A DNA stretch of 64,000 nt from Paracoccus alcaliphilus (lineage in GTDB: Bacteria; Pseudomonadota; Alphaproteobacteria; Rhodobacterales; Rhodobacteraceae): assembly GCF_028553725.1 (NCBI RefSeq), contig NZ_CP067124.1, forward strand, positions 2,056,001-2,120,000, read 5' to 3'. The notes under the pieces are model-generated. The model had not been told where the DNA came from, searched no databases, and saw only the letters and a list, made by a program, of their open reading frames with translations. The position numbers were made by a program, and so were the translations under genes. Below are positions 17,648 to 38,366 of the stretch, piece by piece. How positions within the stretch are numbered: the stretch's first letter is position 1; each line of letters begins with the position of its first letter.

Positions 17648-17680
17648 ACTTGCCGGTGGGACTGCGGCGGAACCGCCCCG

Positions 17681-17926
17681 TCAGGCCGGGGCCATCATCC
17701 CCAGAACCGCACCAAGCACGGCGAACATCAGGCCGAAGATGACCGCGTTCTGACCAAAGCTTTTATGCGGGCCGATCGGGGATTTGTCGGGATCGGGGCC
17801 TTCACCGGCCAGAAACTTCTGCTTGCGCTTTTCATACCCGCGCCTGTTTGTCGCATTGGTGAATACCCACGCCATTCCCGGTCCGCCAATAACCGCCATG
17901 AGAACTGCCATAATGATCGGGGCCAT
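17681..17926 (-). CDS. Small two-helix membrane protein of unknown function
   Basis: An 81-residue protein with two hydrophobic segments (about residues 3-24 and 60-78) flanking a charged loop rich in Lys, Arg and Asp (NRRGYEKRKQKFLAGEGPDP). This predicts a hairpin membrane protein. No enzyme motif or named family is recognised. The gene converges on the potA-type gene. Coding potential is supported by the clean helix-loop-helix pattern, by third-position GC, and by the lack of a better frame. Confidence 0.6.
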   Translation of the reverse strand: MAPIIMAVLMAVIGGPGMAWVFTNATNRRGYEKRKQKFLAGEGPDPDKSPIGPHKSFGQNAVIFGLMFAVLGAVLGMMAPA

Positions 17927-18353
17927 GATTCAAATCTCTTGATGTTTCCTATGGCGGTCATTCTGCCGGGTTTTCCCGCCTGTTCAAGCCGCAGGCCGCG
18001 CATGGGCGGGAAGCTGCAAGCGGGCAGCACCGCCCGGGAAGCGTAAACAGACCTGACGGTTCAGCTTCTCTTGAGGGCGGTTAATCGTTATGATCGCGGT
18101 GGGACTCGGGGGCGACCTGTCCAAAGTGTCAGCTTTCATTGGGGCGGAATGCGTTTTACTCGTTATGTCTGCGGTTGTTTGGGTACGCGGTGATTGTCAT
18201 GTGTAGGGCGGATTGCCGAAATCTGCCGAAAATCAAGGAAGTTTCGCCCGATTCAATGGGTGGATTTTTCGCCCTCGTCCCAGATATTGACGCAGCGCGG
18301 CAACGATTCGGCGTCGCGGCATTACGCGATGTGTTTTCGGGGGATATTGGTTA
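17927..18353. promoter_or_regulatory. Gene-free leader ahead of the polyketide synthase cluster
   Basis: About 430 bases with no convincing gene, and visibly poorer in GC than its surroundings, especially from 18050 on. It must contain the promoter of the minus-strand small membrane gene and that of the long plus-strand cluster. GGGGGA near 18338 is a plausible ribosome site for the synthase ATG at 18354. I could not fix a -35/-10 pair or a clear operator. Confidence 0.4.
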
Positions 18354-21300
18354 ATGGCGCGTGATGATTTCGAGGGAACCCTGCCCGAAAACGCCATTGC
18401 GATCACCGGCATGGCGGCGCATCTGCCCGGCGCGCCGGATGTGGCGACATTCTGGACCAATCTGCGCGATGGCATCGAATCGATCCGGCATCTGACGGTC
18501 GAGGAACTGCTGGCCAATGGCGAAAGCCCCGCCCGGATGCGCCAGCCGAATTTCGTGCCCGCCGCCTCGGTCCTCGACGGGTTCGAGCGGTTCGACCCCG
18601 AGTTCTTCGGTCTCTCGCTGAAAGAGGCCGCGATCATGGACCCCCAGCACCGCCAGTTTCTGGAATGTGCATGGGAGGCGTTGGAAAATGCCGGGCATAT
18701 GCCGGAAAATTTCGGCGGTCCCATTGGCGTTTTCGCCGGCTGCGGGATGGGCAGCTATTTCTATTTCAACATCTGCTCGAACCCGGATCTGGTGCGGAAT
18801 ACCGGGATGTTCCTGTTGCGCCATACCGGCAATGACAAGGATTTCCTGTCCACCCGCGTCAGCCATATTTTTGATCTGAAAGGCCCCAGCCTCTCGATCC
18901 AGACCGCGTGTTCGACCTCGCTGGTGGCGGTGCATCAGGCCAGCCAGTCGCTGCTGAACGGCGAATGCGACATGGCCCTTGCCGGTGGCGTGACGTTGGA
19001 GCTGCCGCACGGCCGGGGCTATCTGTTCGAGGAGGGCGAGATCCTGTCGCCCGACGGCCATTGCCACGCTTTCGACCATCGCGCGCAGGGCACGGTTTTC
19101 GGCTCGGGCGCGGGCTGCGTGGTGCTGCGACGGCTGGAGGATGCGATTGCCGACGGCGATCACATCTGGGCGGTGGTGCGCGGCACGGCGGTCAACAATG
19201 ACGGCGCGGCCAAGGCGGGTTATCTGGCTCCTTCCGTCGAGGGGCAGGCCCGCGCCGTGGCCGAGGCGCATGGCGTCGCGGGTGTCTCTGCCGACACCAT
19301 CGGTTATGTCGAATGTCACGGCACCGGCACCTATCTGGGCGACCCGATCGAGGTCGCCGCGCTGACGCAGGCCTTCCAGGAGACGACGCAAGACAGCGGC
19401 TTTTGCGGCATCGGCAGCGTCAAGACCAATATCGGCCATACCGATACGGCGGCGGGCGTGGCCAGCCTGATCAAGGTCAGCCTTGCGCTGCATCACGGCC
19501 AGATCCCGCCCTCATTGGGATATGAGGCGCCGAACCCCGCGATTGATTTCGACGGCTCGCCCTTCCGGGTGACCGACCGGCTGAGCGATTTTCCCCGCCT
19601 GAAGGGGGCGCCGCGCCGGGGCGGGGTCAACAGCCTGGGCGTCGGCGGCACCAATGCCCATGCCGTGGTCGAGGAAGCGCCCAAGCGCGCCGCGTCGGGG
19701 ATCAGCGACTGGCCGTTCCAGATTCTGGTCCTGTCGGCGCGTAACAAACCGGCGCTGGATGATGCCAGCCGCAACCTGGCGGCCCATCTGCGCGCCCATC
19801 CCGAACAGGATCTGGCCGATGTGGCCTGGACGCTGAAACAGGGCCGCCGCGCCTTTGAACATCGCCGGGTGCTGGTGGCGACCAGCCACGAGGACGCCGC
19901 CGCGAAACTGGAGGCGGGCGACCGATTCAGCATCTTCACCCATCAGGCCTTGCCCGAGCGCCCGGAACTGGTCTTCATGTTCCCCGGTGGCGGCGCGCAA
20001 TATGCGGGCATGGCACGCGATCTTTATGAGACCGAGCCGGTTTTTCGCGAATGGATGGACAAGGGGCTGGACCATCTGGCGCCCCAACTGGATTACGACC
20101 TGCGTGCGCTGTGGCTGCCCGAACCCGGCGCGGAACCCGATGCCGTCGAACGGTTGAAGCGCCCCTCGGTGCAACTGCCGCTGATCATGATTACCGAATA
20201 TGCGCTGGCGCAGTTGTGGATCAGCTGGGGGGTGCAGCCTGCCGCGCTGATCGGGCATTCGATGGGCGAGAACGCCGCCGCCTGCGTCGCGGGCGTCATG
20301 TCCTTCGAGGATTGCATCGGGTTGGTGCATCTGCGCGGGCAGTTGTTCGACACCATCGCGCCGGGGGGAATGCTGTCGGTGCCGCTGTCGGCGGATGCGT
20401 TGCAGGCCTATTGGGCCGATGATCTGGACATGGCCTCGGTCAATGCGCCGGACCTTTGTGTCGTATCCGGCCCGCAGGCGGCGCTGGACGCGCTGGAGGC
20501 GCGGCTGGCGGCGGATGAGATCGAGGCGCAGCGCATCCAGATCGACATCGCCGCCCACAGCCGCATGCTGGAGCCGATCCTGACCCGTTTCGGCGACTAT
20601 CTGCGCGGGATCACGCTGTCGCCGCCGCGCCTGCCGGTGATCTCGAACCGCACCGGCCAGCCGCTGACGGCGGATCAGGCGACCAGCCCCGATTACTGGG
20701 TCACCCATCTGCGCAATTCGGTGCTGTTCGCGGATGGCATCGCCCATCTTGCCCAGCACAAATGCCGGGTCTATCTGGAGGTCGGGCCGGGCCGGGCGCT
20801 GGCCTCTCTGGCGCAGGCGAACGGGGTGCCGGGCAATCAGGTGCTGTCATCGCTGCGCCATCCCGACCACGGGGTGCCCGACGACGAATGGTTCATCGCC
20901 ACGCTGGGGCGGCTGTGGTCGCTTGGCGTCGATGTGGACTGGACCCCGATCTGGGGCGAGGCACGGCGCAACCGCGTGCCGCTGCCGACCTATCCCTTCC
21001 AGCGCGGCAGCTATTTCATCCAGCCGGGCCGCGCCACTGCACAGCCCGAGGAAGAGCTGATCGAGCGGGTCGAGGGCGTCGAGAACTGGGGCTGGCAGCC
21101 GCATTGGCGCCCCCGCGCCGCCGATACCGATGTCGAGGCCGATGAATTGGACCGGGCCGAGCCGCGCACATGGCTGGTCTTTGCCGACGAGGCCGGGCTG
21201 GCCGCGCGCACCATCACCCGGCTGCGGGGTGCGGGCCATCGCGTGATCGAGGTCCGGGCGGGCGATCTTTATGCGCAGACTTCTGCGGACAGTTTCACGA

Positions 21301-24300
21301 TCTCGCCCGAGCGGGGGCGCGAGGATTACGACCGGCTGATCCACGACCTTGTCGCCACCGGTCTGGCGCCGCAGCGGATCGCGCATTTCTGGCTGATCAC
21401 GGCGGGCGAGACCTTCCGCCCCGGTTCCAGCTTTTTTCACCGTAATCAGGAACAGGGCTTCTATAGCCTGATGTTCCTTGCGCAGGCCATGGCCGAGGAG
21501 AACCTGCCGCGTCCGATCCATCTGCTGGCGGTCTCAAACGGCGCGGTGCAGGTGCGGGATGAGGCGCTGCCCTATCCCGACAAGGCGACGGCCGTCGGGC
21601 CGCTGCGGGTGATGCCGCGCGAATTGCCGGGCGTGAGCTGTTCGGCGCTGGATGTGACCCTGCCCGAAGGCCGCCGCAATGACGCGGCATGGCAGGCGCT
21701 GGCCGATCGCGTGATCGAGGAAATGCTGGCCGAACCAGCCAACCTTTCCGCCGCTTTGCGCGGGGATCGCCGCTATCAGCTGGGCTGGCGGAAATTGCCG
21801 CTGAGCGATGCGTCGGGGGCGCTGCCGCAAGGTGCGGTCTGCCTGCTGACCGGCGGTTTCGGTGGAATCGGGCTGACCGTTGGCGAGCGCCTGGCCCGCG
21901 ATCTGGGCGCGAAACTGGTGCTGATCGGCCGCCGCCCGCTGCCTGACCGGGCACAATGGGACACGCTGCTGCGCAATGCCGCGCCGAATGATGTGACCGC
22001 CGCCCGCATCCGCGGTGTGCAGCGGCTGGAGGCGGCGGGGGCCGAGGTTCTGTGCCTGACCGCCGATGTCTGCAACCTTCAGGACATGGCCGCCGCCCGC
22101 GATCGGGCCGTCAGCCGCTTTGGCCGCATCGACATGGTGATCCATGCGGCGGGCGTGGTCGATGATGCGCCGATCCTGACCAAGACCCTTGCCAGCGTCG
22201 AAAACGTCTTTGCCGCCAAGGTCCACGGCACCGAAGTTCTGGGCGAGGTTTTCCCCGACGGCTCGGTCGGGCGGATGGTGGTGTTCAGCTCGACCTCGAC
22301 CGCGATCGCGCCCGCCGGGCAGGTGGATTACGTCGCCGCCAATGAATTCCTGAACGCATGGGCCAGATCGCGCGCGGGTGGGAAAACGCAGGTGACGGCG
22401 GTGAACTGGGGCATCTGGGCCGAGGTCGGTATGGCCGCCGAAGCCTTCGCCCGACCCGAACCCGCGCCCGTCACCGATGTCGATGCCCCCATGCTGGACA
22501 AGGCGACATTCGATGCCGAGGGCAACCGCGTCTTTACCACCGGCCTGACGACACGGCGCTGGATTCTGGATGGCCACCGCACGAAGGACGGGCAGGCGCT
22601 GATCCCCGGCACCGGCTATCTGGATCTGATCGCACAGGGTCTGCGGGCGCATGGCGAAAGCGGTCCGTTCGAGATCCGCGACCTCTATTTCTTCCGTCCG
22701 CTGGCCGTCGATGACGATACCCCGCGAGAAATGCGCCTGACGCTGAGCCGCAACGATGAAGGCTACAGCGTCCAGATCCGCAGCGATGTGATCACAGACG
22801 GCCGCAAGGGATACGAGTTGAACGCGCAGGGGCAGGTCGGTTTTGATGCTCCCGCATCTTCGGCGATTGATATTGACGCGATTTCAGATCGTTGCGGCGA
22901 TAGTATCGAAAGCGACCCGCGCGGGTTGCGCAGCCCGCAAGAGGAGCATCTGAATTTCGGACCGCGCTGGCGGGTCCTGCGCCGTCGCGCCTATGGGGCG
23001 GGCGAAGGGCTGGCCGAACTGGCGCTGCCCGACACATTTCGCGCGGAACCTGCGCAGGGCTGGCCCATTCACCCGGCGCTGATGGATCTGGCGACGGGCT
23101 GGGCGATGGGGCTGATCGAGGGCTATGCGCCAGATCATCTCTGGGTGCCGGTCAGCTATGGCTCGGTTTTGGTCCATGCACCGCTGACCGCCGAAATCCG
23201 TAGTTGGGTGCGCAATGCGGGCGAGAACCGGGCCGATGATCCTTCGGCGCGTTTCGATGTGACACTGACCGATCCCGAGGGTCGCGTGCTGATCGAAATT
23301 TCTGGCTTTACCATTCATCGCCTTGATGGTGCGCTTGATTTTGCCGCTTCCTCGGTCCAGCGCGACGTGATTTTTCCCGACTCGAAGTCGGAAAACCGCC
23401 AATTGTCCCCGGCCGAGGAACGGCTTCAGCACAACCTGTCCCAGGGCATCCGTCCCGAGGAAGGCGCCGAGGGCTTTCTGCGCGCGCTTGCCACCGGCAG
23501 GCCGCAGGTGGCGGTCAGTTCCATGCCGCTTCTGACGCTGATCGAGCAGGCCGGGCAGGGTGTTGATAATATCGAAGAGCGTCAGGGCTTCGAGCGCCCG
23601 CAACTGGACAGCGACTATGTCGAGCCCCGCAACGGGGTCGAGCGCACGCTGGTCGGGTTCTGGCAGGAATTGCTGGGCGTGGGGCAGGTCGGCGTCGAGG
23701 ACAGCTTCTTCGATCTGGGCGGCCATTCGCTGATCGCCGTACGGCTGTTCGCGATGATCCGCAAGACCTGGGCGGTGGACTTCCCGATCTCGATCCTGTT
23801 CGAGGCGCCGACCATCGCCGCCTGCGCCGCGCTGATCGAGGACCGCATCGGCCCGCAGGATGGTGATCTGTCCGAGGTCCCGAAGCCGAAAGCGCCCGCC
23901 CGCCGCTTCACCCATCTGGTGCCCATGCATCAGGGCGAGGGCGGACCGCGCCGCCCCTTCTTCCTTGTCGCGGGGATGTTCGGAAATGTGCTGAACCTGC
24001 GCCATCTTGCGCAGCTGCTGGGCGGCGACCGTCCCTTCTATGGATTGCAGGCACGCGGGCTGTTCGGAGAAGATCAGCCGCACGATAATTTCCCTGATAC
24101 CGCAAGAGATTACATCGCAGAATTGAAGCAGGTTCAACCACATGGACCCTATCTTCTGGGCGGGTTTTCGGGTGGCGGGCTGATCGCTTGGGAAATGGCC
24201 CGGCAGCTGGAATCCGAGGGCGAGGAGGTCGCGCTGACCGTGCTGCTGGACACGCCGCTGCCGATGCGCCCGGCGCTGACGCGGCAGGATAAGGCGCTGA

Positions 24301-24755
24301 TCAAGCTGGCCGAGTTGCGTCGCAAGGGGCCGGGTTATCTGCGCGAATGGATGCAGGCGCGCGCCGATTGGAAGCGCCAGCAGCGCGAACGTGCCGATGC
24401 CGCGCCCGAGGCCGCGGGCCAGTTCCACAATACCGCCATCGAGGCCGCATTCCGCGCCGCGCTGCCGGGTTACGATATGCTGAAACGCGACGGCCGGGTG
24501 GTGCTGGTGCGGCCGCCTCTGGACCGGCACTGGCAGGTTTCTGGCGGGCGCTGGGTCAGCGCGGCCAAGGAATATGTCTTTGCCGACAATGACCTGACCC
24601 GTTTCGCGCCCGCGCTGGAGGTGATCGAGGTGCCGGGGGATCACGACAGTATGGTGCTGGAACCCAATGTGCGGGTGATGGCGGCGCGGCTGCGCGAGGT
24701 CATCGCAGAGACCGAGGCGGGGATCGGCACCCCCTTGGCGCAGGCGGCGGAGTAG
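18354..24755 (+). CDS. Type I polyketide synthase, KS-AT-KR-DH-ACP-TE
   Basis: A 2133-residue single-module modular PKS. KS (about 15-440) has the full triad: C186 in TACSTS, H322 in ECHGTGT and H362 in NIGHTDTA. AT (about 535-830) has S636 in GHSMGE and the AAHS segment usual in malonyl-loading ATs. KR (structural part from about 900, catalytic part 1160-1345) has TGGFGGIG, S1313, Y1326 and N1330. DH (about 1385-1650) has H1408 and D1578, though the H-to-G spacing is one residue longer than HxxxG. ACP has S1792 in GGHSL. TE has S1939 in GFSGGG. All active sites look intact. KR before DH is not the usual order. The ATG at 18354 follows GGGGGA. GT2 and NRPS-like genes follow directly. Confidence 0.92.
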   Translation: MARDDFEGTLPENAIAITGMAAHLPGAPDVATFWTNLRDGIESIRHLTVEELLANGESPARMRQPNFVPAASVLDGFERFDPEFFGLSLKEAAIMDPQHRQFLECAWEALENAGHMPENFGGPIGVFAGCGMGSYFYFNICSNPDLVRNTGMFLLRHTGNDKDFLSTRVSHIFDLKGPSLSIQTACSTSLVAVHQASQSLLNGECDMALAGGVTLELPHGRGYLFEEGEILSPDGHCHAFDHRAQGTVFGSGAGCVVLRRLEDAIADGDHIWAVVRGTAVNNDGAAKAGYLAPSVEGQARAVAEAHGVAGVSADTIGYVECHGTGTYLGDPIEVAALTQAFQETTQDSGFCGIGSVKTNIGHTDTAAGVASLIKVSLALHHGQIPPSLGYEAPNPAIDFDGSPFRVTDRLSDFPRLKGAPRRGGVNSLGVGGTNAHAVVEEAPKRAASGISDWPFQILVLSARNKPALDDASRNLAAHLRAHPEQDLADVAWTLKQGRRAFEHRRVLVATSHEDAAAKLEAGDRFSIFTHQALPERPELVFMFPGGGAQYAGMARDLYETEPVFREWMDKGLDHLAPQLDYDLRALWLPEPGAEPDAVERLKRPSVQLPLIMITEYALAQLWISWGVQPAALIGHSMGENAAACVAGVMSFEDCIGLVHLRGQLFDTIAPGGMLSVPLSADALQAYWADDLDMASVNAPDLCVVSGPQAALDALEARLAADEIEAQRIQIDIAAHSRMLEPILTRFGDYLRGITLSPPRLPVISNRTGQPLTADQATSPDYWVTHLRNSVLFADGIAHLAQHKCRVYLEVGPGRALASLAQANGVPGNQVLSSLRHPDHGVPDDEWFIATLGRLWSLGVDVDWTPIWGEARRNRVPLPTYPFQRGSYFIQPGRATAQPEEELIERVEGVENWGWQPHWRPRAADTDVEADELDRAEPRTWLVFADEAGLAARTITRLRGAGHRVIEVRAGDLYAQTSADSFTISPERGREDYDRLIHDLVATGLAPQRIAHFWLITAGETFRPGSSFFHRNQEQGFYSLMFLAQAMAEENLPRPIHLLAVSNGAVQVRDEALPYPDKATAVGPLRVMPRELPGVSCSALDVTLPEGRRNDAAWQALADRVIEEMLAEPANLSAALRGDRRYQLGWRKLPLSDASGALPQGAVCLLTGGFGGIGLTVGERLARDLGAKLVLIGRRPLPDRAQWDTLLRNAAPNDVTAARIRGVQRLEAAGAEVLCLTADVCNLQDMAAARDRAVSRFGRIDMVIHAAGVVDDAPILTKTLASVENVFAAKVHGTEVLGEVFPDGSVGRMVVFSSTSTAIAPAGQVDYVAANEFLNAWARSRAGGKTQVTAVNWGIWAEVGMAAEAFARPEPAPVTDVDAPMLDKATFDAEGNRVFTTGLTTRRWILDGHRTKDGQALIPGTGYLDLIAQGLRAHGESGPFEIRDLYFFRPLAVDDDTPREMRLTLSRNDEGYSVQIRSDVITDGRKGYELNAQGQVGFDAPASSAIDIDAISDRCGDSIESDPRGLRSPQEEHLNFGPRWRVLRRRAYGAGEGLAELALPDTFRAEPAQGWPIHPALMDLATGWAMGLIEGYAPDHLWVPVSYGSVLVHAPLTAEIRSWVRNAGENRADDPSARFDVTLTDPEGRVLIEISGFTIHRLDGALDFAASSVQRDVIFPDSKSENRQLSPAEERLQHNLSQGIRPEEGAEGFLRALATGRPQVAVSSMPLLTLIEQAGQGVDNIEERQGFERPQLDSDYVEPRNGVERTLVGFWQELLGVGQVGVEDSFFDLGGHSLIAVRLFAMIRKTWAVDFPISILFEAPTIAACAALIEDRIGPQDGDLSEVPKPKAPARRFTHLVPMHQGEGGPRRPFFLVAGMFGNVLNLRHLAQLLGGDRPFYGLQARGLFGEDQPHDNFPDTARDYIAELKQVQPHGPYLLGGFSGGGLIAWEMARQLESEGEEVALTVLLDTPLPMRPALTRQDKALIKLAELRRKGPGYLREWMQARADWKRQQRERADAAPEAAGQFHNTAIEAAFRAALPGYDMLKRDGRVVLVRPPLDRHWQVSGGRWVSAAKEYVFADNDLTRFAPALEVIEVPGDHDSMVLEPNVRVMAARLREVIAETEAGIGTPLAQAAE

Positions 24756-24757
24756 TT

Positions 24758-25756
24758 ATGGCAACGGTTCTGACGGTCATCCTGAACTGGCGCACGCCGG
24801 AAATGACCCTGCGCTCGGCCGAGGCGGCGCTGACCGCCATGCAGGGGATCGAGGGTGCGATTACCATCGTCGATAACGACAGCGGCGACGGCTCCGAGGA
24901 AATGCTGCGGGCGGAAGTGGCTGCGCGCGGCTGGGATCGGGTGCGGGTGATCCAGTCGGGGCATAATGGCGGCTTCGGCGCGGGCAACAATGTCGGTATC
25001 CGCGCGGGCCTGCCAGATGGCGGGCGGCCCGATTTCGTCTATCTGCTGAACTCGGACGCCTTTCCCGCCTCCGACGCGATCCGCATCCTGCGCGATTATC
25101 TTGAGGCCGATCCGGGTCTGGGCATGGCGGGCAGCTTTATCCACGGCGAGGACGGCGACCCGCATGTGACCTGCTTCCGCTTTCCGTCCGTCGCCTCGGA
25201 ATTCGAGGGCGGCGCCCAGACCGGTCCGATCACGCGGCTGTTACGGCGCCATGTCGTCCCGCAGGTGATCCCTTCGCAGCCTGCCGCGATGGATTGGGTC
25301 GCCGGGGCCAGCCTGATGATGCGGCAGGATATGCTGGACCGGATCGGGTTGTTCGACGAAGGCTATTTTCTTTATTTCGAGGAAACCGATCTGTGCCTGC
25401 GCGCCGCGCGCGGCGGCTGGCGGGTGCTGTATATCCCGCAAAGCCGGGTCGCGCATATCGGTTCGGTCTCGACCGGCATGAAGGGCTGGGGGCGGACTCC
25501 GACATATTGGTTCGATAGCCGCTGGCGTTATTTCCGCAAGAATTACGGGGTGTTGACCGCCTGTCTTGCGACATTGGCGGTGCTGGCGGGACTGTCCGTC
25601 AACCGCTTGCGCGCCGCCATCGGCAATGCCCCCCGCAACGGCGGGCCGCATCACCTGCGCGATCTGATCCGCCATGATCTCCGCGCCCTGTTGCGCGGCA
25701 TCGACACCCGACATCAGCCCATAGCCTCCCCCTCTGTCAGCCCGAGGACGACATGA
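24758..25756 (+). CDS. Family 2 glycosyltransferase in the PKS/NRPS cluster
   Basis: A 332-residue GT-A fold enzyme. It shows the nucleotide-sugar motifs VDNDSGDGSEE (near residue 38), NGGFGAGNN (near 69), LLNSDA (near 93, in the DxD position) and the late FEETDLCLRA acceptor/catalytic segment (near 208), as in rhamnosyltransferase-like GT2 proteins. A hydrophobic stretch near 268-285 may touch the membrane. It starts two bases after the PKS stop and overlaps the NRPS-like gene by ATGA, so it is made together with both synthases. That suggests it glycosylates their product or a carrier; this is inference. Confidence 0.83.
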   Translation: MATVLTVILNWRTPEMTLRSAEAALTAMQGIEGAITIVDNDSGDGSEEMLRAEVAARGWDRVRVIQSGHNGGFGAGNNVGIRAGLPDGGRPDFVYLLNSDAFPASDAIRILRDYLEADPGLGMAGSFIHGEDGDPHVTCFRFPSVASEFEGGAQTGPITRLLRRHVVPQVIPSQPAAMDWVAGASLMMRQDMLDRIGLFDEGYFLYFEETDLCLRAARGGWRVLYIPQSRVAHIGSVSTGMKGWGRTPTYWFDSRWRYFRKNYGVLTACLATLAVLAGLSVNRLRAAIGNAPRNGGPHHLRDLIRHDLRALLRGIDTRHQPIASPSVSPRTT

Positions 25757-28700
25757 CCATTTCCGCCCTGTTCATCGGTAACGAATCCCTGCTGATCCAA
25801 TGTGCCGGACAATGGCGCGACCGGGGTCATCGCATCAGCGCCGTCGTGACTCGCGATTCCGATATCCGGATCTGGGCCGAGGGGCAGGGCATTCCCGTGC
25901 ATGCGCAATCGGACCTGCGCGAACCGGGCGATCTGGCCTATGACTGGCTGTTCAGCGTCGCGAACCTGTCGCTGGTGCCCGATGCGTTGCTGAAGCAGGC
26001 GGCGATGGGCGCGATCAACTTCCATGATGGTCCGCTGCCGCGCCGGGCGGGGCTGAACAGCCCGGCCTGGGCGATCCTGCAAGGGGACAGCAGCCACGGC
26101 ATCACCTGGCACCTGATCGAGGGCGGCTTGGACGAGGGCGACATTCTGGAACAGCGCCTGTTCGATCTGTCCCCCGATGAGACCACGCTGACCCTGAATA
26201 CCCGCTGTTTCGAGGCCGCCATCGACAGTTTCGCCGCCGTGATCGCGCAGGTCGAGACCGGGCTGGACCGCAAGCCGCAGGACCTTTCCCAGCGTGGCTA
26301 TCACGCCCGCGCCGACCGGCCCGATGATGCCGGGGTGCTGGACGTGACCGGGTCGCGCGATGCCGCGCTGAGGCTGATCCGGGGGCTGGATCACGGCGAT
26401 TATGCCAACCCGCTGGCCTTGCCAAAATTCCAATGCGATGGCCGTGTCTTTGCCCTGCGCGGCGCCCAGCCTGCCGATGGTCATGGTGTCCCCGGCACGG
26501 TTCTGGACGCCTGCGCGGAAGGCGCGACGGTGCTGTTTGCCGATGGCGCGCTGCGGTTGACGGGGATCGAGCCTCTGGATGGCGGCGAATATGATCCGGC
26601 GGCGCTTCGGGACCGGGTGCTGGAGACGCCCGACAGGCAGGCGCTGACGCAGGCGATCGCGGCAGTCGTCGCGGGTGAGGGTTACTGGCGCAAGGCGCTG
26701 AAAACATTTGCCGCCGCCAGCCTGCCGCTGGCGAACCATGCCGAGGGCAAGGGCGACTGGCAGTCCCTGTCGGTGCCGGGTCAGGCGGGTGATCTGCTGG
26801 CGGCGGCGGGTCTGCTGGCCACTGCGCTGGCGGGCGAATCCGTTGTCGATCTGGCCTTGCACGATCCGGCGGGTCCTGTTGCTGCGGGCTATCTGTCCGA
26901 TTGGGTGCCGTTACGGGCCGAGGTCGATCCCGCATCGCCAGCCGCCGCGCTGCGCGAGGCGATGCAGGCGCGGCTGGCCCGGGCCCGGCAATATCCGGCC
27001 TTCGTGCTGGACCTGCCGCTGCGCGACCCCGCCATCCAGCGCCCCGGCCTGCCGCAGATCGGGATCGCGGCGGCAGGCGACGCCCCGCTGGCCGGAACCG
27101 TGATCACGCTGGCGCTGGAAAGCGGGCGGCTGCATTACGATGCCTCGCGCCTCGATGCCGCGCCCGCCGGGTTGCTGGCGGCGCGGTTGGCGCATCTGGC
27201 AGCCGCGGTGGCAGCGGGCGGTCCGGTCGGGGATATCCCGCCCATGCCGCAGGCCGAGCGTGACCTGACCGTCAAGGACTGGAACCGGACGCAGACCGAT
27301 TTTCCCGATCTTTGCGTGCATCAGGCTTTCGAGGCGCAGGTGGCCCGGACCCCCGATGCCATCGCGCTGACGGTCGAGGACCGGCATCTGAGCTATGCCG
27401 AACTGAACCGCTGCGCCAATCGCGCCGCGCATGTGCTGCGGCAGATGGGGGTGGCACCCGGCACGCTGGTCGGCATCCACACCACCCGCAGCGAGCATCT
27501 GCTGATCGGCACGCTGGCGATCATGAAGGCGGGCGGCGCCTATGTGCCGCTGGACCCGGCCTATCCCGCCGACCGCATCGCGCTGTATATCGAGGACAGC
27601 GCCTGCCCGGTCATCGTCACCGAAAGCGCGCTGTCGCAGGGCCTGCCCGCACATGGCGCGCAGCTGCTGGTGCTGGATCAGGATACGCGGCTGGCTGACG
27701 CACCCGGGGACGATCCCGACAGCGGCGTGACGCCTGCCGATCTGGCCTATCTGATCTATACCTCGGGTTCGACCGGGCGTCCCAAGGGCGTGATGCTGGA
27801 ACATCGCAACGTCGCCAATTTCTTTACCGGCATGGACGACCGCATCCAGCATGATCCGGCCGGGGTGTGGCTGGCGGTGACCTCTCTGTCCTTTGACATC
27901 TCGGTGCTGGAACTGTTCTATACGCTGGCGCGGGGTTTCCGCATCGTGCTGATGGGGGACGAGGAACGGGCGCTGGTATCCGGCGGCGGGGCGGTCAGCG
28001 ACAAGCCGATGGATTTCAGCCTGTTCTATTGGGGCAATGATGACGGCGTCGGGCGCGAGAAATACCATCTGTTGCTGGAAGGCGCGAAATTCGCCGACGA
28101 GCACGGATTCTGCGCCGTCTGGACGCCGGAACGCCATTTCCACGCCTTTGGCGGCCCTTATCCCAACCCCTCGGTGACAGGCGCGGCGGTCGCGGCGGTG
28201 ACGCGCAATCTGGAGGTGCGGGCGGGGTCCTGCGTGGCGCCGTTGCATCACCCGATCCGCATCGCCGAGGAATGGGCGGTGATCGACAACCTGACCAATG
28301 GGCGCACCGGGCTGGCCATCGCCTCGGGCTGGCATCCCGAGGATTTTGTGCTGAAGCCGGAAAACTCGCCCCCCGAGAACAAGCCCGCGATGTATAAAAC
28401 CATCGACATTCTGCGCCGCTTGTGGCGGGGCGAGAAGGTGGCCTTCCCGATGGCCGGCGGCAAGATGGTCGATGTGCTGACCCAGCCGCGCCCGGTCTCG
28501 GACGAGATCAATATCTGGGTGACGACGGCGGGCAACCCCGCCACTTGGCGCGAGGCGGGGGAAATGGGCGCCCATGTGCTGACCCACCTGCTGGGCCAGA
28601 CCATCGACGAGGTGGCCGAGAAGATCGGCATCTATCACAAGGCGTTGCGCGATTCCGGTCGCGATCCGGCGAAATATCGCGTCACGCTGATGCTGCATTC

Positions 28701-30306
28701 CTATCTGGCGGCGGATCGGGAAACGGCGCGCGAGGTCGCCCGGCAGCCGATGAAGGATTACCTGGCCGCCGCCACGGCGCTGGTCAAGCAATATGCCTGG
28801 GCCTTCCCGGCCTTCAAGAAGCCGCAGGGCGTCAACAACCCGATGGAGATCGACCTTGGCACCCTGTCGGACGAGGAAAACGACGCCATCCTCGAATTCG
28901 CCTTCAACCGCTATTTCGAGGATTCGGGCCTGTTCGGCACGGTCGAGGAAATGCTGCCCCGGATCGAGCGGCTGAAACAGATCGGCGTGACCGAGGTGGC
29001 GGCGCTGATCGACTATGGCATTGCGCGCGAACAGGTGCTGGAGGGGCTGCGCCCGCTGGCCGAGCTGCTGGCCCGCGCCAATGCCGGGACCGCGCCCGCG
29101 CCGGATGATTTCTCGATTGCGGCGCAGATCCGGCGTCATGGGGTGACGCATCTGCAATGCACGCCCTCGATGGCGCGGATGATTGCGATGAATGACGATG
29201 CGTATGCGGCCCTGTCGCAGGTCCGGCATCTGATGATCGGCGGCGAGGCCCTGTCGGGATCGCTGGTGGCCGATCTGAACAAGGCCAGCCCCGCGGCGCG
29301 GATCGAGAACATGTATGGTCCGACCGAGACGACGATCTGGTCCACCACCGCCACGGCAGACGCGCTTGAGCCCATCGCCAGCATCGGCACGCCCATCGCC
29401 AATACGCAGGTCTATGTGCTGGACGATCAGTTGCGTCCGATGCCCGTTGGCGCGCCCGGAGAGTTGTGGATCGGCGGCGATGGTGTCGCGCGCGGCTATT
29501 GGCAGCGCGAGGATCTGACCGGCGAACGCTTCCGCCCCAACCCCTTCCATCCGGGGCGGATGTATCAAACCGGTGATCTGGTCCGCTGGCGCTCTGACGG
29601 GCGGCTGGAATTTCTTGGCCGCGCCGATCATCAGGTGAAGATGCGCGGCTATCGGATCGAACTGGGCGAGATCGAGGCCGTGGCCGAGGGCTTTGCCGGT
29701 GTCCGTCAGGCGGTGGTGATGGCGCGCGAGGACCGGCCTGGCGACATGCGGCTGGTGGGTTATGTCACCGGCGACAGCTGGCTGGCGGAGGAGGCACTGA
29801 AGGATCATCTGGCGACGGTGCTGCCTGCGCATATGGTGCCCTCGCATATCGTCAAGCTGGCGGAATTTCCGTTGACGCCGAACCGCAAGGTGGATCGCAA
29901 GGCGCTGCCCGCGCCCTCGGACGGGGCGGAACAGCGCCCCGAGACCTATGTCGCGCCGGCGGGCGGGGTGCAGGCCACCATCGCGGGCGTCTGGTCGCGG
30001 ATCCTGAACCGCGCCCAGATCGGCGCGAAGGACAATTTCTTCGCACTGGGGGGGCATTCGTTGCTGGCGGTGCAGGCCCATCGCGAAATCCGGCAGGCGC
30101 TTGGCGGTATCCGGCTGTCGATCACCGATATCTTCCAGTATCCGACGCTGGAAGGGCTGGCCGGGCATCTGGACGCCGCATCCGGGACCAATGGCGCCGG
30201 TCAGGCCCCGACCGATCCGGTGGCGGCGACCCCGGACCGGGCGGTTGCGCGGGCCGAAGCGATGTCGAAGCGCCGCGCCCTCCGGGCCGGGCGGGCGCAG
30301 GGTTAA
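25753..30306 (+). CDS. NRPS-like enzyme: formyltransferase, adenylation interrupted by luciferase-like monooxygenase, carrier
   Basis: 1517 residues. Residues 1-300 are a formyltransferase with N89, H91 and D127, the spacing of Fmt N106/H108/D144. Residues 320-500 resemble the C-terminal half of a condensation domain without HHxxxDG. The adenylation domain starts near 520 with LIYTSGSTGRPKG (667-679) and FDIS (D715, amino-acid anchor). It is split by a luciferase-like flavin monooxygenase (about 753-1105, MupA/Atu3671 type), then resumes with MYGPTETT (1187) and ends near 1385. The carrier has S1436 in GGHSL. There is no thioesterase. The pocket read by eye (D-I-L-Q-M-G-M-I-W) resembles the glycine code. 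The ATG overlaps the GT2 stop. Confidence 0.9.
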   Translation: MTISALFIGNESLLIQCAGQWRDRGHRISAVVTRDSDIRIWAEGQGIPVHAQSDLREPGDLAYDWLFSVANLSLVPDALLKQAAMGAINFHDGPLPRRAGLNSPAWAILQGDSSHGITWHLIEGGLDEGDILEQRLFDLSPDETTLTLNTRCFEAAIDSFAAVIAQVETGLDRKPQDLSQRGYHARADRPDDAGVLDVTGSRDAALRLIRGLDHGDYANPLALPKFQCDGRVFALRGAQPADGHGVPGTVLDACAEGATVLFADGALRLTGIEPLDGGEYDPAALRDRVLETPDRQALTQAIAAVVAGEGYWRKALKTFAAASLPLANHAEGKGDWQSLSVPGQAGDLLAAAGLLATALAGESVVDLALHDPAGPVAAGYLSDWVPLRAEVDPASPAAALREAMQARLARARQYPAFVLDLPLRDPAIQRPGLPQIGIAAAGDAPLAGTVITLALESGRLHYDASRLDAAPAGLLAARLAHLAAAVAAGGPVGDIPPMPQAERDLTVKDWNRTQTDFPDLCVHQAFEAQVARTPDAIALTVEDRHLSYAELNRCANRAAHVLRQMGVAPGTLVGIHTTRSEHLLIGTLAIMKAGGAYVPLDPAYPADRIALYIEDSACPVIVTESALSQGLPAHGAQLLVLDQDTRLADAPGDDPDSGVTPADLAYLIYTSGSTGRPKGVMLEHRNVANFFTGMDDRIQHDPAGVWLAVTSLSFDISVLELFYTLARGFRIVLMGDEERALVSGGGAVSDKPMDFSLFYWGNDDGVGREKYHLLLEGAKFADEHGFCAVWTPERHFHAFGGPYPNPSVTGAAVAAVTRNLEVRAGSCVAPLHHPIRIAEEWAVIDNLTNGRTGLAIASGWHPEDFVLKPENSPPENKPAMYKTIDILRRLWRGEKVAFPMAGGKMVDVLTQPRPVSDEINIWVTTAGNPATWREAGEMGAHVLTHLLGQTIDEVAEKIGIYHKALRDSGRDPAKYRVTLMLHSYLAADRETAREVARQPMKDYLAAATALVKQYAWAFPAFKKPQGVNNPMEIDLGTLSDEENDAILEFAFNRYFEDSGLFGTVEEMLPRIERLKQIGVTEVAALIDYGIAREQVLEGLRPLAELLARANAGTAPAPDDFSIAAQIRRHGVTHLQCTPSMARMIAMNDDAYAALSQVRHLMIGGEALSGSLVADLNKASPAARIENMYGPTETTIWSTTATADALEPIASIGTPIANTQVYVLDDQLRPMPVGAPGELWIGGDGVARGYWQREDLTGERFRPNPFHPGRMYQTGDLVRWRSDGRLEFLGRADHQVKMRGYRIELGEIEAVAEGFAGVRQAVVMAREDRPGDMRLVGYVTGDSWLAEEALKDHLATVLPAHMVPSHIVKLAEFPLTPNRKVDRKALPAPSDGAEQRPETYVAPAGGVQATIAGVWSRILNRAQIGAKDNFFALGGHSLLAVQAHREIRQALGGIRLSITDIFQYPTLEGLAGHLDAASGTNGAGQAPTDPVAATPDRAVARAEAMSKRRALRAGRAQG

Positions 30307-30348
30307 GGCCGGTTTCGGTCTGCAAGTGAACGAGTGGGGAATGTCTGG

Positions 30349-31320
30349 ATGAATCGCAGGATGGCCGTTTTGTCTGGTGCGGGTTTCGCCGGGCTGCTGG
30401 GACTGGGGGCAGGGGCGCTGTTATGGCGCCGCCGTCGCGCCGCCCGTGGCCCCGCGCCGCTGGCGCAACTGTCGCTGGCCGAATTCACCGATGCGCATCC
30501 GCCGCTGACCCCGCCCGAGGGTCCGCTGCATGTCTATCACCTGGGGCACAGTCTGGTCGGGCCGCATATGCCCGCCATGCTGAAGCAACTGGTCGCGGGG
30601 CATCGCTATGGCGCGCAGATCGGCTGGGGCACGACGCTGCGCGCACATTGGGAAGAACGCACCAGTCTGCCGGGCTATGAGAGCGTCCATACCCAGCCCG
30701 AATTCGCCGACGCGACCGGGGCCATCGCCAGCGGTCAGTATGATGCCGTGGTACTGACCGAGATGGTCGAGTTGAAGGACGCGATCAAATGGCATTCCAG
30801 CAGCCATTACCTTGCGAAATGGGCGCGGCATGCCCGGCAGGCGCGGCCCGATCTGCGGCTGTATCTCTATGAGACATGGCATTCGCTGGACGATCCGGCG
30901 GGCTGGCTGGAACGGATCGACAGCGATTCCGATACCCTGTGGCGCGATGAAATCATCCGCCGCGCCATGAACGACCCCGAGGCCGGGGCGATCTATCGCA
31001 TTCCGGGCGGGCCGGTTATGGCCGCCGTCGCCCGCGCCGCCGAGGCGGGTACGCTACCCGACCTGACCCGGCGTGAACAGCTGTTTGCCCGCAACGAGGA
31101 AGGGACGCAGGACAATATCCATCTCAGCGATCTGGGCACCTATGTCATCGCACTGACGCATTACGCGGTGCTGTATCAGCAAAGCCCCGAAGGGTTGCCG
31201 CATCGGTTGGCCTTGGCCGATGGGCAGCCGGCCGATGCCCTGTCGGATGAGGCCGCCGCCATCGTGCAGCGCATCGTCTGGCAGGTCGTGCGTGATGATC
31301 CGCTGTCCGGTGTGGCGTGA
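30349..31320 (+). CDS. Membrane-anchored SGNH-hydrolase-like protein
   Basis: A 323-residue protein with an N-terminal hydrophobic segment (about residues 5-25) flanked by basic residues. The soluble domain opens HVYHLGHSLVGPHM and ends near DNIHLSDLGTYVIALTHYA. The serine in GHSL and the DxxH pair (D..IH) match the nucleophile and Asp-His of SGNH/GDSL esterases, but the oxyanion Gly and Asn blocks are not obvious, so enzyme activity is inferred. The start at 30349 has GTGGGGA about eight bases upstream; an in-frame GTG at 30334 is part of that ribosome site. It lies 42 bases after the NRPS-like gene and may trim or release the product. Confidence 0.6.
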   Translation: MNRRMAVLSGAGFAGLLGLGAGALLWRRRRAARGPAPLAQLSLAEFTDAHPPLTPPEGPLHVYHLGHSLVGPHMPAMLKQLVAGHRYGAQIGWGTTLRAHWEERTSLPGYESVHTQPEFADATGAIASGQYDAVVLTEMVELKDAIKWHSSSHYLAKWARHARQARPDLRLYLYETWHSLDDPAGWLERIDSDSDTLWRDEIIRRAMNDPEAGAIYRIPGGPVMAAVARAAEAGTLPDLTRREQLFARNEEGTQDNIHLSDLGTYVIALTHYAVLYQQSPEGLPHRLALADGQPADALSDEAAAIVQRIVWQVVRDDPLSGVA

Positions 31321-31385
31321 ACGCGCATCATGGGTTTCCGTCCAGGCAGTCGCCACGCGGAATGTCGGAAAGTGAAAGGGGCATC

Positions 31386-32594
31386 ATGCGGATCGGCTAT
31401 CTTCTGAACACCTATCCGCAGCCGAGCGTGACCTTCATCCGGCGCGAAATCCACGCGCTGGAGCGTCAGGGCCTGCATATCCATCGCTTTGCCATGCGCA
31501 GCGACCGTTCGGTGCTGGTCGATGCCGGGGATCTGGCCGAATACGATCAGACCGAACTGGTGCTGAAGGCAGGCGGTCTGCGTCTGCTGCGCGATCTGGC
31601 GCATCTGACCCTGCGCCGCCCTTCGGCTGTGGCGCGGGCCCTGCGTCTGGCGTGGCGCCTTGGCGGCAGGCAGCCGGGGATGCGGCTGAAGCACCTGATC
31701 TATCTGGCCGAGGCGGCTTATGTCGCGCGCCGGGCCGACGCGCTGGCTCTGGACCATATCCACGCGCATTTCGGCACCAATCCCGCAGCCGTCGCGATGC
31801 TGGTGCGGGTGCTTGGCGGGCCGGGCTTCAGCTTTACCGTCCACGGCCCCGAAGAGTTCGACCAGCCTAAGGCGCTGGCTCTGGGCGAAAAGATTGCCGC
31901 CAGTCGCTTTGCCGTGGCGATTTCGTCTCATGGTCGCAGCCAGTTGTCGCGTTGGGCGGATGGCGCGGACTGGCCGCGATTGCAGGTGGTGCATTGCGGC
32001 ATCGATCCTTTGCGGTTCGCGGAGCCGGCCCCGATGCCCGACGGGCCCCTGCATCTGGTCAATATCGGCCGCTTCGTCGAGCAGAAGGGTCAGCTGCTTT
32101 TGCCGCAGGCGGTGGCGATGGCTCGTGCCGGGGGGGCGGACCTGCACCTGACGCTGGTCGGCGATGGCCCCATGCGCGCCGCGATCGAGGCAGCCATTCG
32201 CGACCACGACGTGGCCGATCACGTCACCCTGACCGGCTGGCAGGACGAGGCCGGAGTGCGCGCCATCCTCGATACGGCCCACGGGTTGGTCCTGCCCAGC
32301 TTTGCCGAGGGACTGCCGATGGTCGCTATGGAGGCGATGGCCGCCGGGCGCATCGTGCTGGGAACATGGATCGCGGGCAATCCCGAGTTGATCCTGCCCG
32401 GCCAGACCGGGTGGCTGGTGCCCGCGGGCGATGCCGCCGCGCTGGCCCGCGCCATGCAGGACATCGCCGCCACGCCAGCGCCGCGTCTGCGCGAGATGGG
32501 CCAGGCAGCGCGCACCCGCGTGTTGCAGCGCCACGACATCAACCAGCAGGCAGCAAGGCTTGCCACCCTGTTCGAAGGCGCGATCAACCGATGA
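31386..32594 (+). CDS. Family 4 glycosyltransferase at the end of the PKS/NRPS cluster
   Basis: A 402-residue GT-B glycosyltransferase. The N-terminus is MRIGYLLNTYPQPSVTFIRREI. The linker to the donor domain contains VVHCGIDPLRF, and the C-terminal half shows VNIGRFVEQKGQ and PSFAEGLPMVAMEAMAAG with the paired Glu of retaining GT4 enzymes. It resembles exopolysaccharide-type transferases. The ATG at 31386 has GAAAGGGG just upstream; a GTG overlapping the previous stop at 31317 would add 23 unconserved residues. Its stop overlaps the ATG of the next small reading frame. Sugar and acceptor are unknown. Confidence 0.8.
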   Translation: MRIGYLLNTYPQPSVTFIRREIHALERQGLHIHRFAMRSDRSVLVDAGDLAEYDQTELVLKAGGLRLLRDLAHLTLRRPSAVARALRLAWRLGGRQPGMRLKHLIYLAEAAYVARRADALALDHIHAHFGTNPAAVAMLVRVLGGPGFSFTVHGPEEFDQPKALALGEKIAASRFAVAISSHGRSQLSRWADGADWPRLQVVHCGIDPLRFAEPAPMPDGPLHLVNIGRFVEQKGQLLLPQAVAMARAGGADLHLTLVGDGPMRAAIEAAIRDHDVADHVTLTGWQDEAGVRAILDTAHGLVLPSFAEGLPMVAMEAMAAGRIVLGTWIAGNPELILPGQTGWLVPAGDAAALARAMQDIAATPAPRLREMGQAARTRVLQRHDINQQAARLATLFEGAINR

Positions 32595-32880
32595 GGGCAT
32601 TTTTCGCCTTTGGCACAAGCATAGGCGCCACCTGGCGGGCGTGTCAGGTGCGATCATCGGGCAGGCGCTGGTCGGCTGGGTGATGCATCTGGCGGTGACC
32701 GGGCTGACCCGGAAACATCGCATGTGGAATCCGCTGCATGATCTGGTCTTTGCCGCCCTTGGGGTGCTGGCCAGCGGGCTTGTGCTTTACATCCATCCGC
32801 CCTCGCAGGCGGGCGGCAGGGTTTTGCCGACAAATCTTTCTTTGCAGGCGGTGGTTGTGTCTGTTCCGCGCCCGGTCTAG
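32591..32880 (+). CDS. Small two-helix membrane protein with an apparent one-base frameshift
   Basis: An ATG at 32591 overlaps the preceding stop (ATGA), but its frame closes at 32683. The neighbouring frame carries a convincing membrane protein up to 32880: WHKHRRHLAGVSGAIIGQ, a second hydrophobic helix near LHDLVFAALGVLASGLVLYIH, and a Ser/Val-rich tail. Adding one T to the run of five at 32600-32604 joins the two into a 96-residue protein beginning MRAFFRLWHKHRRH. So this is a recent frameshift, a sequencing error, or a shorter protein starting at the GTG at 32641. No function is recognised. Confidence 0.45.
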
Positions 32881-32965
32881 CGTCGGTCGGAATTCGGGTG
32901 GGCCGGTTCGGGACAGGTCCATCTGCCATAGGAATATCAACGACTTGCTATCCGAGGGCATTTCC

Positions 32966-34222
32966 ATGCTGACTCGTCTTTTCTTGATTGCGGGAACGAT
33001 CTGCGCGCTGGCATCGCCCTCGGCCCTGCTGGCGCAAGAGGCACCGGGCGGCGGGGACGCGCCGCCGACGCCGGTCACCGTGGTGACATTGCGGGCGACT
33101 GACGTGACGCTGACCACCAGCCTTCCGGGGCGGGTGCTTGCCTCGGCGCAGGCGGAACTGCGCCCGCAGGTGAATGGCATCATCGTCCAGCGCCTGTTCG
33201 AGGAAGGCTCGCAGGTGGCCGAGGATGATCCGCTCTATCGGATTGATCCGCGCAGCTATGAGGCCGCCGTGGCGCAGGCCGAGGCCACGCTGACGCAGGC
33301 GCAGGCGCAGGCCGATGCCGCCCGCCGCGATGCCGAGCGGATCGACGCCTTGCGCGACCGTCGTGTGGCGTCGGAACAATCGCAGGATACTGCCATCGCC
33401 GCCCGCGACGCCGCCGAGGCCGCCGTCAGGGTCGCCGAGGCGCAGCTGCTGTCGGCGCGGATCGATCTGGACCGCACGACCGTCCGCGCCCCCATCGCCG
33501 GGGTCATCGGTCTGGCGCAAAGCTCTCAGGGGGCGCTGGCGACGGCCAGTCAGGCCGATCCGCTGGCAGTGATCCGCAGCATCGATCCTGTCCATGTGGA
33601 TGTGACCCAGTCCGCCGCCGATATCGTGCGCTGGCGCCGCCTTGGACCCGAGGCCGCGCTGCCGCCCGATATGGACCGCACCGTTTCCCTGCGGCTGGCT
33701 GATGGCAGCATCTATGAACATACCGGATCGCTGACCGCTGCCGAGCCGCATGTGGATGAGATGACCGGCGTCGTCACCCTGCGCATGGCCTTCGACAATC
33801 CCGACGGTTTCCTGCTGCCGGGGATGTATGTGCAGGCGGATATTCCGCAGGCGCATATCCGCAACGCCGTGCTGGCCCCGCAGGAAGGCGTCACCCGCGA
33901 CCGTCGTGGCCGCCCCGTCGCGCTGGTCGTCAACGATGACAATATCGTCGAGGAACGGCTGCTGGATATCCAGCAGGATCACGGCAATCAATGGGTGGTC
34001 AGCGAGGGGCTGGCCGATGGCGACCGGATCATCGTCGAGGGCGTTCAGCGGATCGGGCCGGGCATGACCGTGGCCCCCGAAGAGCGCGCCGCCCGGCAGG
34101 ACGCCGCCGGTGCCGGGGCCGCGGATGACACAGCAGAACAGCCCGCCGAGAACCCTGCGGAAGACCCGGCAGAGGACGCCACCGGGCAGCCCGACCCCGC
34201 CACAGACCCAGCCGCCGACTGA
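32966..34222 (+). CDS. RND efflux periplasmic adaptor subunit
   Basis: A 418-residue membrane-fusion protein of the AcrA/MexA family. It has a signal peptide (about residues 1-23, ending ALLAQE), a biotinyl-lipoyl-like half (LRPQVNGIIVQRLFEEGSQV), a long Ala-rich coiled-coil hairpin (about 85-150), the second lipoyl half (RAPIAGVIGLAQSSQGALA), a beta-barrel, and a low-complexity acidic tail of Glu-Asp-Pro-Ala repeats from about 380. It links the inner-membrane pump to an outer-membrane channel. The ATG at 32966 has GAGGG seven bases upstream; the longer open frame from 32738 is not signal-peptide-like. The pump gene follows after 44 bases; no TolC-type gene is present. Confidence 0.9.
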   Translation: MLTRLFLIAGTICALASPSALLAQEAPGGGDAPPTPVTVVTLRATDVTLTTSLPGRVLASAQAELRPQVNGIIVQRLFEEGSQVAEDDPLYRIDPRSYEAAVAQAEATLTQAQAQADAARRDAERIDALRDRRVASEQSQDTAIAARDAAEAAVRVAEAQLLSARIDLDRTTVRAPIAGVIGLAQSSQGALATASQADPLAVIRSIDPVHVDVTQSAADIVRWRRLGPEAALPPDMDRTVSLRLADGSIYEHTGSLTAAEPHVDEMTGVVTLRMAFDNPDGFLLPGMYVQADIPQAHIRNAVLAPQEGVTRDRRGRPVALVVNDDNIVEERLLDIQQDHGNQWVVSEGLADGDRIIVEGVQRIGPGMTVAPEERAARQDAAGAGAADDTAEQPAENPAEDPAEDATGQPDPATDPAAD

Positions 34223-34266
34223 CACCCGGCCAAGTCCCAACGTCACGGATCAGGAACCGATCGATC

Positions 34267-37380: not shown

Positions 37381-37395
37381 CCGGAGGGAAATACT

Positions 37396-38280: not shown

Positions 38281-38287
38281 GTATTTC

Positions 38288-38310
38288 TATCGAATGACGG
38301 AAATTCGATA
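38288..38310 (+). promoter_or_regulatory. Candidate LysR operator upstream of fdsG
   Basis: TATCGAA (38288-38294), nine bases, then TTCGATA (38304-38310): a perfect 7-bp inverted repeat that contains the T-N11-A spacing of LysR recognition boxes. It lies about 57 bases before the fdsG ATG, directly downstream of the LysR gene, in an A/T-rich patch. A TTGATT at about 38311 could be the -35 of the fds promoter. Confidence 0.6.
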
Positions 38311-38366
38311 TTGATTTCCCATCATGGAAGCTGTCTTCTGTCTGCGAGGAAGACGAAAGGCCAGCC

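Follow-up and report, generated by a model that had tools for sequence, protein, structure and literature searches.

A hybrid NRPS–PKS operon of Paracoccus and its exopolysaccharide-gene setting in relatives

The window analysed here is a 64-kb stretch (C1:2056001-2120000) of a 4.77-Mb Paracoccus genome of five contigs (G000). It carries five plus-strand genes, for a one-module type I polyketide synthase (PKS), a GT2 glycosyltransferase (GT2a), a non-ribosomal peptide synthetase (NRPS)-like protein, an SGNH-fold protein and a GT4 glycosyltransferase, and it is well supported that they form one operon encoding a hybrid assembly line. In relatives, this operon usually belongs to a Wzx/Wzy-type exopolysaccharide locus. 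Because the assembly line lies amid sugar-polymer genes in most of the close relatives examined, our data suggest that an antibiotic-style building block serves these bacteria as the decoration of a surface sugar. More specifically, we judge the case for a two-protein assembly line whose acid product decorates an extracellular polysaccharide to be evenly balanced.

The sugar-polymer context is new; PKS and NRPS genes were known before in this bacterial group. It gives a testable role to a widespread PKS/NRPS pair of roseobacters and Paracoccus, and makes the polysaccharide, as well as the culture extract, a place to look for the product. If the proposal is true, modular assembly lines would also build surface-polymer decorations, beyond free small molecules, with relevance to the biofilms and surface life of these bacteria.

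The operon and its assembly-line proteins

The five open reading frames (ORFs) lie where the original prediction had placed them, and all are open (2133, 332, 1517, 328 and 425 amino acids (aa)):

18354..24755, +: type I PKS, one module with a terminal thioesterase, KR ahead of DH (ORF, Pfam/NCBIfam, catalytic residues)
24758..25756, +: GT2 glycosyltransferase (GT2a), one hydrophobic helix at the C-terminus (Pfam/NCBIfam, hydrophobicity, relatives)
25753..30306, +: NRPS-like loading protein with formyltransferase (FT), condensation-domain C-lobe, adenylation (A) domain split by a luciferase-like monooxygenase (LLM), peptidyl carrier (PCP) and basic tail (ORF, Pfam/NCBIfam)
30334..31320, +: SGNH-fold protein, predicted to have an N-terminal membrane helix (Ser73, Asp260, His263; alignment, model)
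31317..32594, +: GT4 glycosyltransferase (Pfam/NCBIfam)

We compared these genes with relatives from one scan of genome contigs, which returned 275, and used the best 80 of the 275 for counts. Because the genes are tightly spaced and PKS, GT2a and NRPS are consecutive on one strand in 79 of the 80 relatives, we regard the five as a single operon, as had been predicted. The predicted gaps of 42 and 65 bases hold for ATG starts of genes 4 and 5 (at 30349 and 31386); the longest ORFs of these genes have GTG starts, which give gaps of 27 and -4. A scan of 24600-38600 found no terminator-like sites in the gaps among the five genes (11 in the whole interval, against 6.9 +/- 2.7 in shuffles), and no sigma-70-type site was found at 17600-18400. 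Two very long antisense ORFs, at 26911-30168 (-; 1085 aa) facing the NRPS gene and at 22884-24644 (-; 586 aa) facing the PKS gene, are probably an effect of high GC.

The PKS was expected to have six domains, and Pfam/NCBIfam recovers KS, AT, KR, DH, ACP and TE in that order. KR before DH is an unusual order among cis-AT modules. Domain matches and catalytic residues place them as follows:

18390..19523, +: KS, residues 13-390 (Cys186, His322, His362)
19971..20792, +: AT, residues 540-813 (Ser636, His735)
21837..22424, +: KR, residues 1162-1357 (Ser1313, Tyr1326, Asn1330)
22488..23327, +: DH, residues 1379-1658 (His1408, Asp1578)
23646..23837, +: ACP, residues 1765-1828 (Ser1792)
23961..24731, +: thioesterase (TE), from residue 1870 (Ser1939, His2097), 3' end approximate

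Alignments drew on 80 relatives for the NRPS, 75 for the PKS, 79 for GT2a, 49 for SGNH, 75 for the phosphopantetheinyl transferase (PPTase) discussed below and 55 for GT4, leaving out relatives in which the gene was absent, cut or interrupted. The active sites had been called intact, and every residue that we checked is present and conserved in the aligned relatives. Across 76 PKS rows, the AT Ser/His, KR Ser/Tyr/Asn, DH His/Asp, ACP Ser and TE Ser/His are invariant, and the KS Cys/His/His is found in 75, the remaining row having a gap. The AT motif, AAHS, is not diagnostic for extender choice, and the LDD position of the KR is Asp in 50 of the 76 rows, so we claim no KR stereochemistry.

The NRPS-like protein matches Formyl_trans_N, AMP-binding in two pieces flanking Bac_luciferase/TIGR04020, and PP-binding. 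The formyltransferase and monooxygenase domains of the original prediction are thereby recovered; an isolated condensation-domain C-terminal lobe had been overlooked. Its parts are:

25753..26652, +: formyltransferase, about residues 1-300 (Asn89, His91, Asp127; domain match, residues, AlphaFold model)
26674..27267, +: lone C-terminal lobe of a condensation domain, residues 308-505 (hhalign)
27307..27969, +: N-terminal part of the adenylation domain, to after the FDISVLE motif (domain match)
28015..29067, +: LLM within the adenylation domain, residues 755-1105 (TIGR04020)
29098..29907, +: C-terminal part of the adenylation domain, with the YGPTE motif (domain match)
29977..30171, +: peptidyl carrier domain (Ser1436; domain match, catalytic residue)
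30241..30303, +: basic C-terminal tail RAEAMSKRRALRAGR, a candidate helix for docking the protein to the PKS (similar tail in the 12 sequences listed)

The C-lobe (residues about 308-505) emerged when a profile of the window protein and 80 relatives was aligned by hhalign with the condensation domain of one distant relative, G607, and the N-terminal stretches of the synthetases of two others, G633 and G595 (probability 95-97%; E 2e-8 local, 2e-10 global). The formyltransferase occupies the place of the condensation domain's N-terminal lobe. An AlphaFold model of residues 1-520 (pLDDT 94.2) matches the Fmt, ArnA and WbkC formyltransferases; the Foldseek list for this model of formyltransferase plus C-lobe consists of formyltransferases throughout and is hence uninformative on the C-lobe. 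The LLM lies between the FDISVLE and YGPTE motifs and scores 467.3 bits against TIGR04020, above the cut-off of 244.45; its nearest solved structure is PuwE (6ket, 342 bits).

Among 81 NRPS rows, the formyltransferase Asn/His/Asp and eight of the ten adenylation-pocket places are invariant. Of the other two places, 299 holds M in 59 rows and L in 22, and 330 holds I in 80 and V in the remaining row; the carrier Ser is seen in 80 rows, the other one having a gap there. The pocket therefore reads D-I-L-Q-[M/L]-G-M-[I/V]-W-K throughout (D-I-L-Q-M-G-M-I-W-K in the window), and six distant relatives have the same pocket with M, L, Y or F at the fifth place. We take it, in GrsA numbering, to resemble the glycine code. 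The protein has neither a TE nor a full condensation domain. With A, PCP, KS, AT and ACP all present with their catalytic residues, the operon encodes the domain set of a hybrid NRPS-PKS.

The two glycosyltransferases had been assigned to GT2 and GT4, and Pfam/NCBIfam confirms both; GT2a sits between the PKS and NRPS genes in 79 of the 80 relatives, and the nearest NCBIfam model to the GT4 protein is EpsE, under its cut-off (210 vs 400 bits). The fourth protein (328 aa) matches no Pfam/NCBIfam family. It had been described as SGNH-like, and its model (pLDDT 90.6) has the SGNH fold with Ser and Asp-x-x-His; Ser73, Asp260 and His263 do not vary across 50 rows, and a hydrophobic stretch lies near residue 10.

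Gene neighbourhood in close and distant relatives

The gene-neighbourhood comparison suggested in the original prediction places the PKS-GT2a-NRPS triad usually amid exopolysaccharide genes. Markers were detected in the 80 loci, some with truncated flanks, by tblastn (E 1e-8). Those for the PPTase, a Polysacc_synt_3 flippase (Wzx), WecG, the GT2s and a ParA-like ATPase (c11) were named by Pfam; the Wzz marker is a weak Pfam match, and the Wzy marker a Wzy_C match below cut-off in one member. All 80 loci have PKS, GT2a and NRPS, followed in frequency by PPTase (76), GT4 (57), GT2c (56), SGNH and Wzx (51 each), GH, c11 and Wzz (50 each), GT2b (47), WecG (46) and Wzy (40). The PPTase gene stands directly after the NRPS gene in 76 relatives; the window copy lacks it, as had been reported.

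We counted Wzx, Wzy, Wzz, WecG and the ParA/kinase-like c11 as five core exopolysaccharide genes. At least one lies in the flank of 69 of the 80 loci and at least three in 51. Full flanks, longer than 4 kb on the upstream side and longer than 9 kb on the downstream side, are available for 55 loci, which show 31 gene orders; at least one core gene is present in 50 of them, three or more in 38 and the whole set in 19. With Wzx, Wzy and Wzz beside the cassette, such loci are of the Wzx/Wzy exopolysaccharide type.

Two side observations concern these loci. An 844-aa GH-marker protein linked to the cassette (L054, 18466-21000) has no Pfam match; the N-terminal half of this protein of the relatives is SGNH-like, and its C-terminal half looks glycosidase-like by eye. 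Another contig (L065, 1-24539) bears the name of the actinobacterium Nocardioides marinus, and the locus on it is typical of Rhodobacteraceae; its assembly is probably mislabelled or contaminated.

Farther afield, E values under 1e-150 were obtained in 5 of 289 genomes of the class and 16 of 398 of the phylum (own genome included in each), and six of these distant relatives were looked at. In G457 and G567, from other alphaproteobacterial families, an FT-A(LLM)-PCP protein is encoded amid sugar genes, with GT4 and WecG beside the pair in G457 and Wzx, WecG, SGNH, GT4 and PPTase in G567, several of these matches being at only 26-33% identity. In G319 the NRPS gene precedes the PKS gene on the same strand and GT4 and epimerase genes lie nearby, and in G607 the PKS homologue continues into C-A-PCP-TE. 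The formyltransferase residues are missing in G633 and G595, and G595 has no PKS match. In a midpoint-rooted tree, G319 with G607 and G457 with G567 form separate clades outside the Rhodobacterales rows.

Proposed product and its attachment to a polysaccharide

Given that the NRPS-like protein lacks a TE and a full condensation domain, that the PKS has a TE, and that G607 and G319 have the layouts described above, we place the NRPS-like protein before the PKS. In that order, a small 2-enoyl acid derived from glycine is the probable product. The NRPS-like protein would load glycine onto its carrier, and the inserted FMN monooxygenase would oxidise it, either at nitrogen towards a hydroxylamine or oxime or by alpha-hydroxylation; the formyltransferase may add a formyl cap to the nitrogen. 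The carrier would then dock on the PKS, where the KS would add one C2 unit, KR and DH would yield a 2-enoyl thioester, and the TE would release a small 4-(oximino or formamido)-but-2-enoate-type acid. The three remaining proteins (GT2a, SGNH and GT4) would place this acid on a sugar, or build the sugar that bears it. We infer the substrate, the order of steps, the product and its attachment, the last from the gene neighbourhood. The original prediction had no name for the product, and we found none either.

The course of the oxidation bears on the identity of the group. As a variant compatible with the other readings, the LLM would hydroxylate the alpha carbon and so give a hydroxyglycyl or glyoxylyl primer instead of an oxime, which we consider possible although somewhat on the doubtful side. 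We take MtaG and MelG to carry out such a hydroxylation, and the protein here resembles them in its glycine-like pocket and in having its LLM inserted between FDxS and YGPTE. PuwE, linked to the nearest solved LLM by name, is likewise predicted to alpha-hydroxylate in the account given in PMC4219810. By contrast, in the necroxime model as outlined in PMC7318616, a glycine primer becomes an oxime through oxygenase (OXY) and DH domains.

In its fullest form, our proposal is that a Rhodobacteraceae exopolysaccharide bears a polyketide group derived from glycine, such as 4-oximino- or 4-formamido-but-2-enoyl. A dedicated NRPS-PKS line would build this group, and the thioesterase, GT2 and SGNH protein would help to put it on the sugar, so that a natural-product line would serve to decorate a polysaccharide; we hold this version tentatively, as a little less probable than not. 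Several observations weigh against polysaccharide decoration. No core gene lies in the examined flank of 11 of the 80 relatives: four of these loci (L023, L046, L048 and L058) have truncated flanks, and seven have 10 kb downstream (L015, L034, L038, L041, L042, L044 and L061), all seven with SGNH and five (L015, L034, L038, L041 and L061) also with a GT2 or GT4 marker. Wzx, Wzy, Wzz and WecG are not beside the operon in the 64-kb window (E 1e-8). In the distant relatives, GT2a is not between PKS and NRPS in G319, G457 and G567, and the two genes are divergent in G457 and G567. The prediction of alpha-hydroxylation for PuwE also points away from the oxime, no carrier was identified that would move the acid across the membrane, and a shared neighbourhood is no proof of a shared product.

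In a rival reading, the product of the operon is a free small molecule that may be glycosylated (a signal, an antibiotic or a metal ligand) and that the adjacent HlyD-RND pump exports, the sugar-polymer genes of the relatives being mere neighbours. HlyD, RND and LysR genes directly follow the operon in the window, a TE can simply hydrolyse, and the related pair of G607, with its extra NRPS module, has no sugar-polymer marker match in 40 kb, none of its five annotated upstream proteins being a sugar gene. However, HlyD-RND occurs in the examined flank of only 1 of the 80 relatives (L006), on which ground we rejected the pump as a regular part of the system; a HlyD-RND-LysR run stands beside WecG in G003 with no PKS or NRPS match in 40 kb; and the triad keeps its sugar-polymer genes across 31 gene orders in 55 loci. 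We therefore regard a free molecule as unlikely.

The polysaccharide proposal combines elements of several known systems. Necroxime comes from a line with likenesses to this one, and we take lobatamide to come from a similar assembly line. In both the necroxime line, as outlined in PMC7318616, and the proposed one, a glycine primer is altered by an oxygenase domain ahead of PKS modules with DH; the present system differs from that outline in its single cis-AT PKS module with its own TE, its formyltransferase, its C-lobe and the sugar-polymer context of its relatives, and it has no methyltransferase and no further modules. Linear gramicidin synthase LgrA likewise starts with a formyltransferase with Asn-His-Asp followed by A and PCP, and the A domain here finds its best PDB matches in LgrA chains; unlike LgrA, the Paracoccus protein has half a condensation domain between FT and A, an LLM splitting A, and a PKS partner. 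The LLM exceeds the cut-off of the MupA/Atu3671 family (TIGR04020) and lies inside the A domain, whereas that of PuwE is described in PMC4219810 as lying between PKS/aminotransferase and an NRPS module. Typical Wzx/Wzy-dependent exopolysaccharide loci share Wzx-, Wzy-, Wzz- and WecG-type genes and glycosyltransferases with the relatives' loci, which differ in including a PKS-GT2-NRPS-PPTase cassette; the window copy is coreless.

In the related bacterium Phaeobacter inhibens, the genome listing in PMC4062626 gives one PKS (Inhi_1972) and NRPSs, among them Inhi_1974. Their gene numbers are neighbouring, and these could be the same genes as the PKS and NRPS genes here; the listing itself comes without domain layout, product or a link to polysaccharide. 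The part of the solanimycin paper (PMC9765074) that lists an A-ox-P NRPS has no glycine or formyl term. We found no paper in the open-licence literature searched tying a PKS/NRPS cassette to polysaccharide.

The dispersed locus and the upstream element

In this genome, the five genes adjoin HlyD-RND-LysR, and no PPTase gene lies beside the operon in the window. Some 146 kb from the operon, C1:2234459-2238490 holds WecG, GT2b, c11 and Wzz; a Wzy homologue is at C1:1026755, and GT2c is at C3:157996, beside UDP-glucose-dehydrogenase-type and GT2 genes. A genome search with the GH protein gave matches to SGNH-like halves only. No Wzx of the relatives' family was found in the genome, other flippase families not having been searched; PF13440 has one weak match (28 bits, C1:1955309). 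In P. siganidrum (L006), PPTase, GH, GT2c and Wzx lie between NRPS and HlyD-RND, and in G003 WecG is next to HlyD-RND-LysR. The scattered or absent parts here and these two gene orders indicate rearrangement and partial loss of the locus in this Paracoccus; one simple inversion splitting it does not fit the order in G003. With the locus broken up, the operon would need a PPTase and polymer machinery encoded elsewhere. The genome has two ACPS-family genes. An Sfp-type PPTase is encoded on C3, which is probably not an ortholog of the cluster PPTases, since it has only 32-40% identity to them among the matches listed; we rejected it as a relocated cluster PPTase.

The same dispersal would fit a relic heading for loss that makes nothing. 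Alongside the scattered core genes, the operon is without a PPTase in a genome whose ACPS family has only two genes, neither a GH part nor a Wzx of the relatives' family is found in the genome, and the NRPS homologue is in separate pieces in two members of the genus (G001 C96:3795-8347 and G031 C1:3089846-3094317), perhaps through decay. Against this stand the five open frames, the intact residues, the Sfp-type PPTase on C3, an upstream element retained with one mismatch, and low dN/dS, which together make a relic improbable. Compared with P. siganidrum, dN/dS is 0.13 for PKS, 0.20 for GT2a, 0.20 for NRPS and 0.32 for SGNH; for GT4 and HlyD this comparison was ignored, as it covers only 56 and 51 aligned codons, and GT4 gives 0.27-0.35 against G023, L003 and L007. 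These values point to purifying selection on the remaining operon genes.

Among named organisms, Paracoccus has the closest relatives of the NRPS-like protein, with P. siganidrum first. In a sample of the genus, the protein is found over most of its length in 16 of 37 genomes, own included, among them G001 and G031 with their split copies, and the remaining genomes have partial or weaker matches only. A further NRPS locus of the host genome, with an 8296-aa open frame, lies at G000:C4:103084-136605.

Upstream of the operon lies one conserved feature:

18116..18135, +: upstream element CCTGTCCAAAGTGTCAGCTT, a candidate operator, 238 bp before the PKS start (conservation in relatives)

It falls in a conserved stretch (window 18105-18175), about 175-250 bp before the PKS gene in the window, L003, L004, L006, L007 and G023. 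Paracoccus relatives carry the element as an inverted repeat, AACCTGTCCAAAGCGGCAGGTT, about 240-280 bp upstream of the PKS gene in 6 of the 80 relatives (L003-L007 and L016, all Paracoccus) and in G023. A search allowing up to three mismatches did not find the repeat in the remaining 74 relatives, which makes it a Paracoccus feature. A genome-wide regulon was considered and set aside: at up to two mismatches, matches against the reversed control (10/2 in G000, 4/4 in G023 and 2/0 in G002) are unconvincing. A repeat similar to the element also occurs at the WecG start in L004 and L005.

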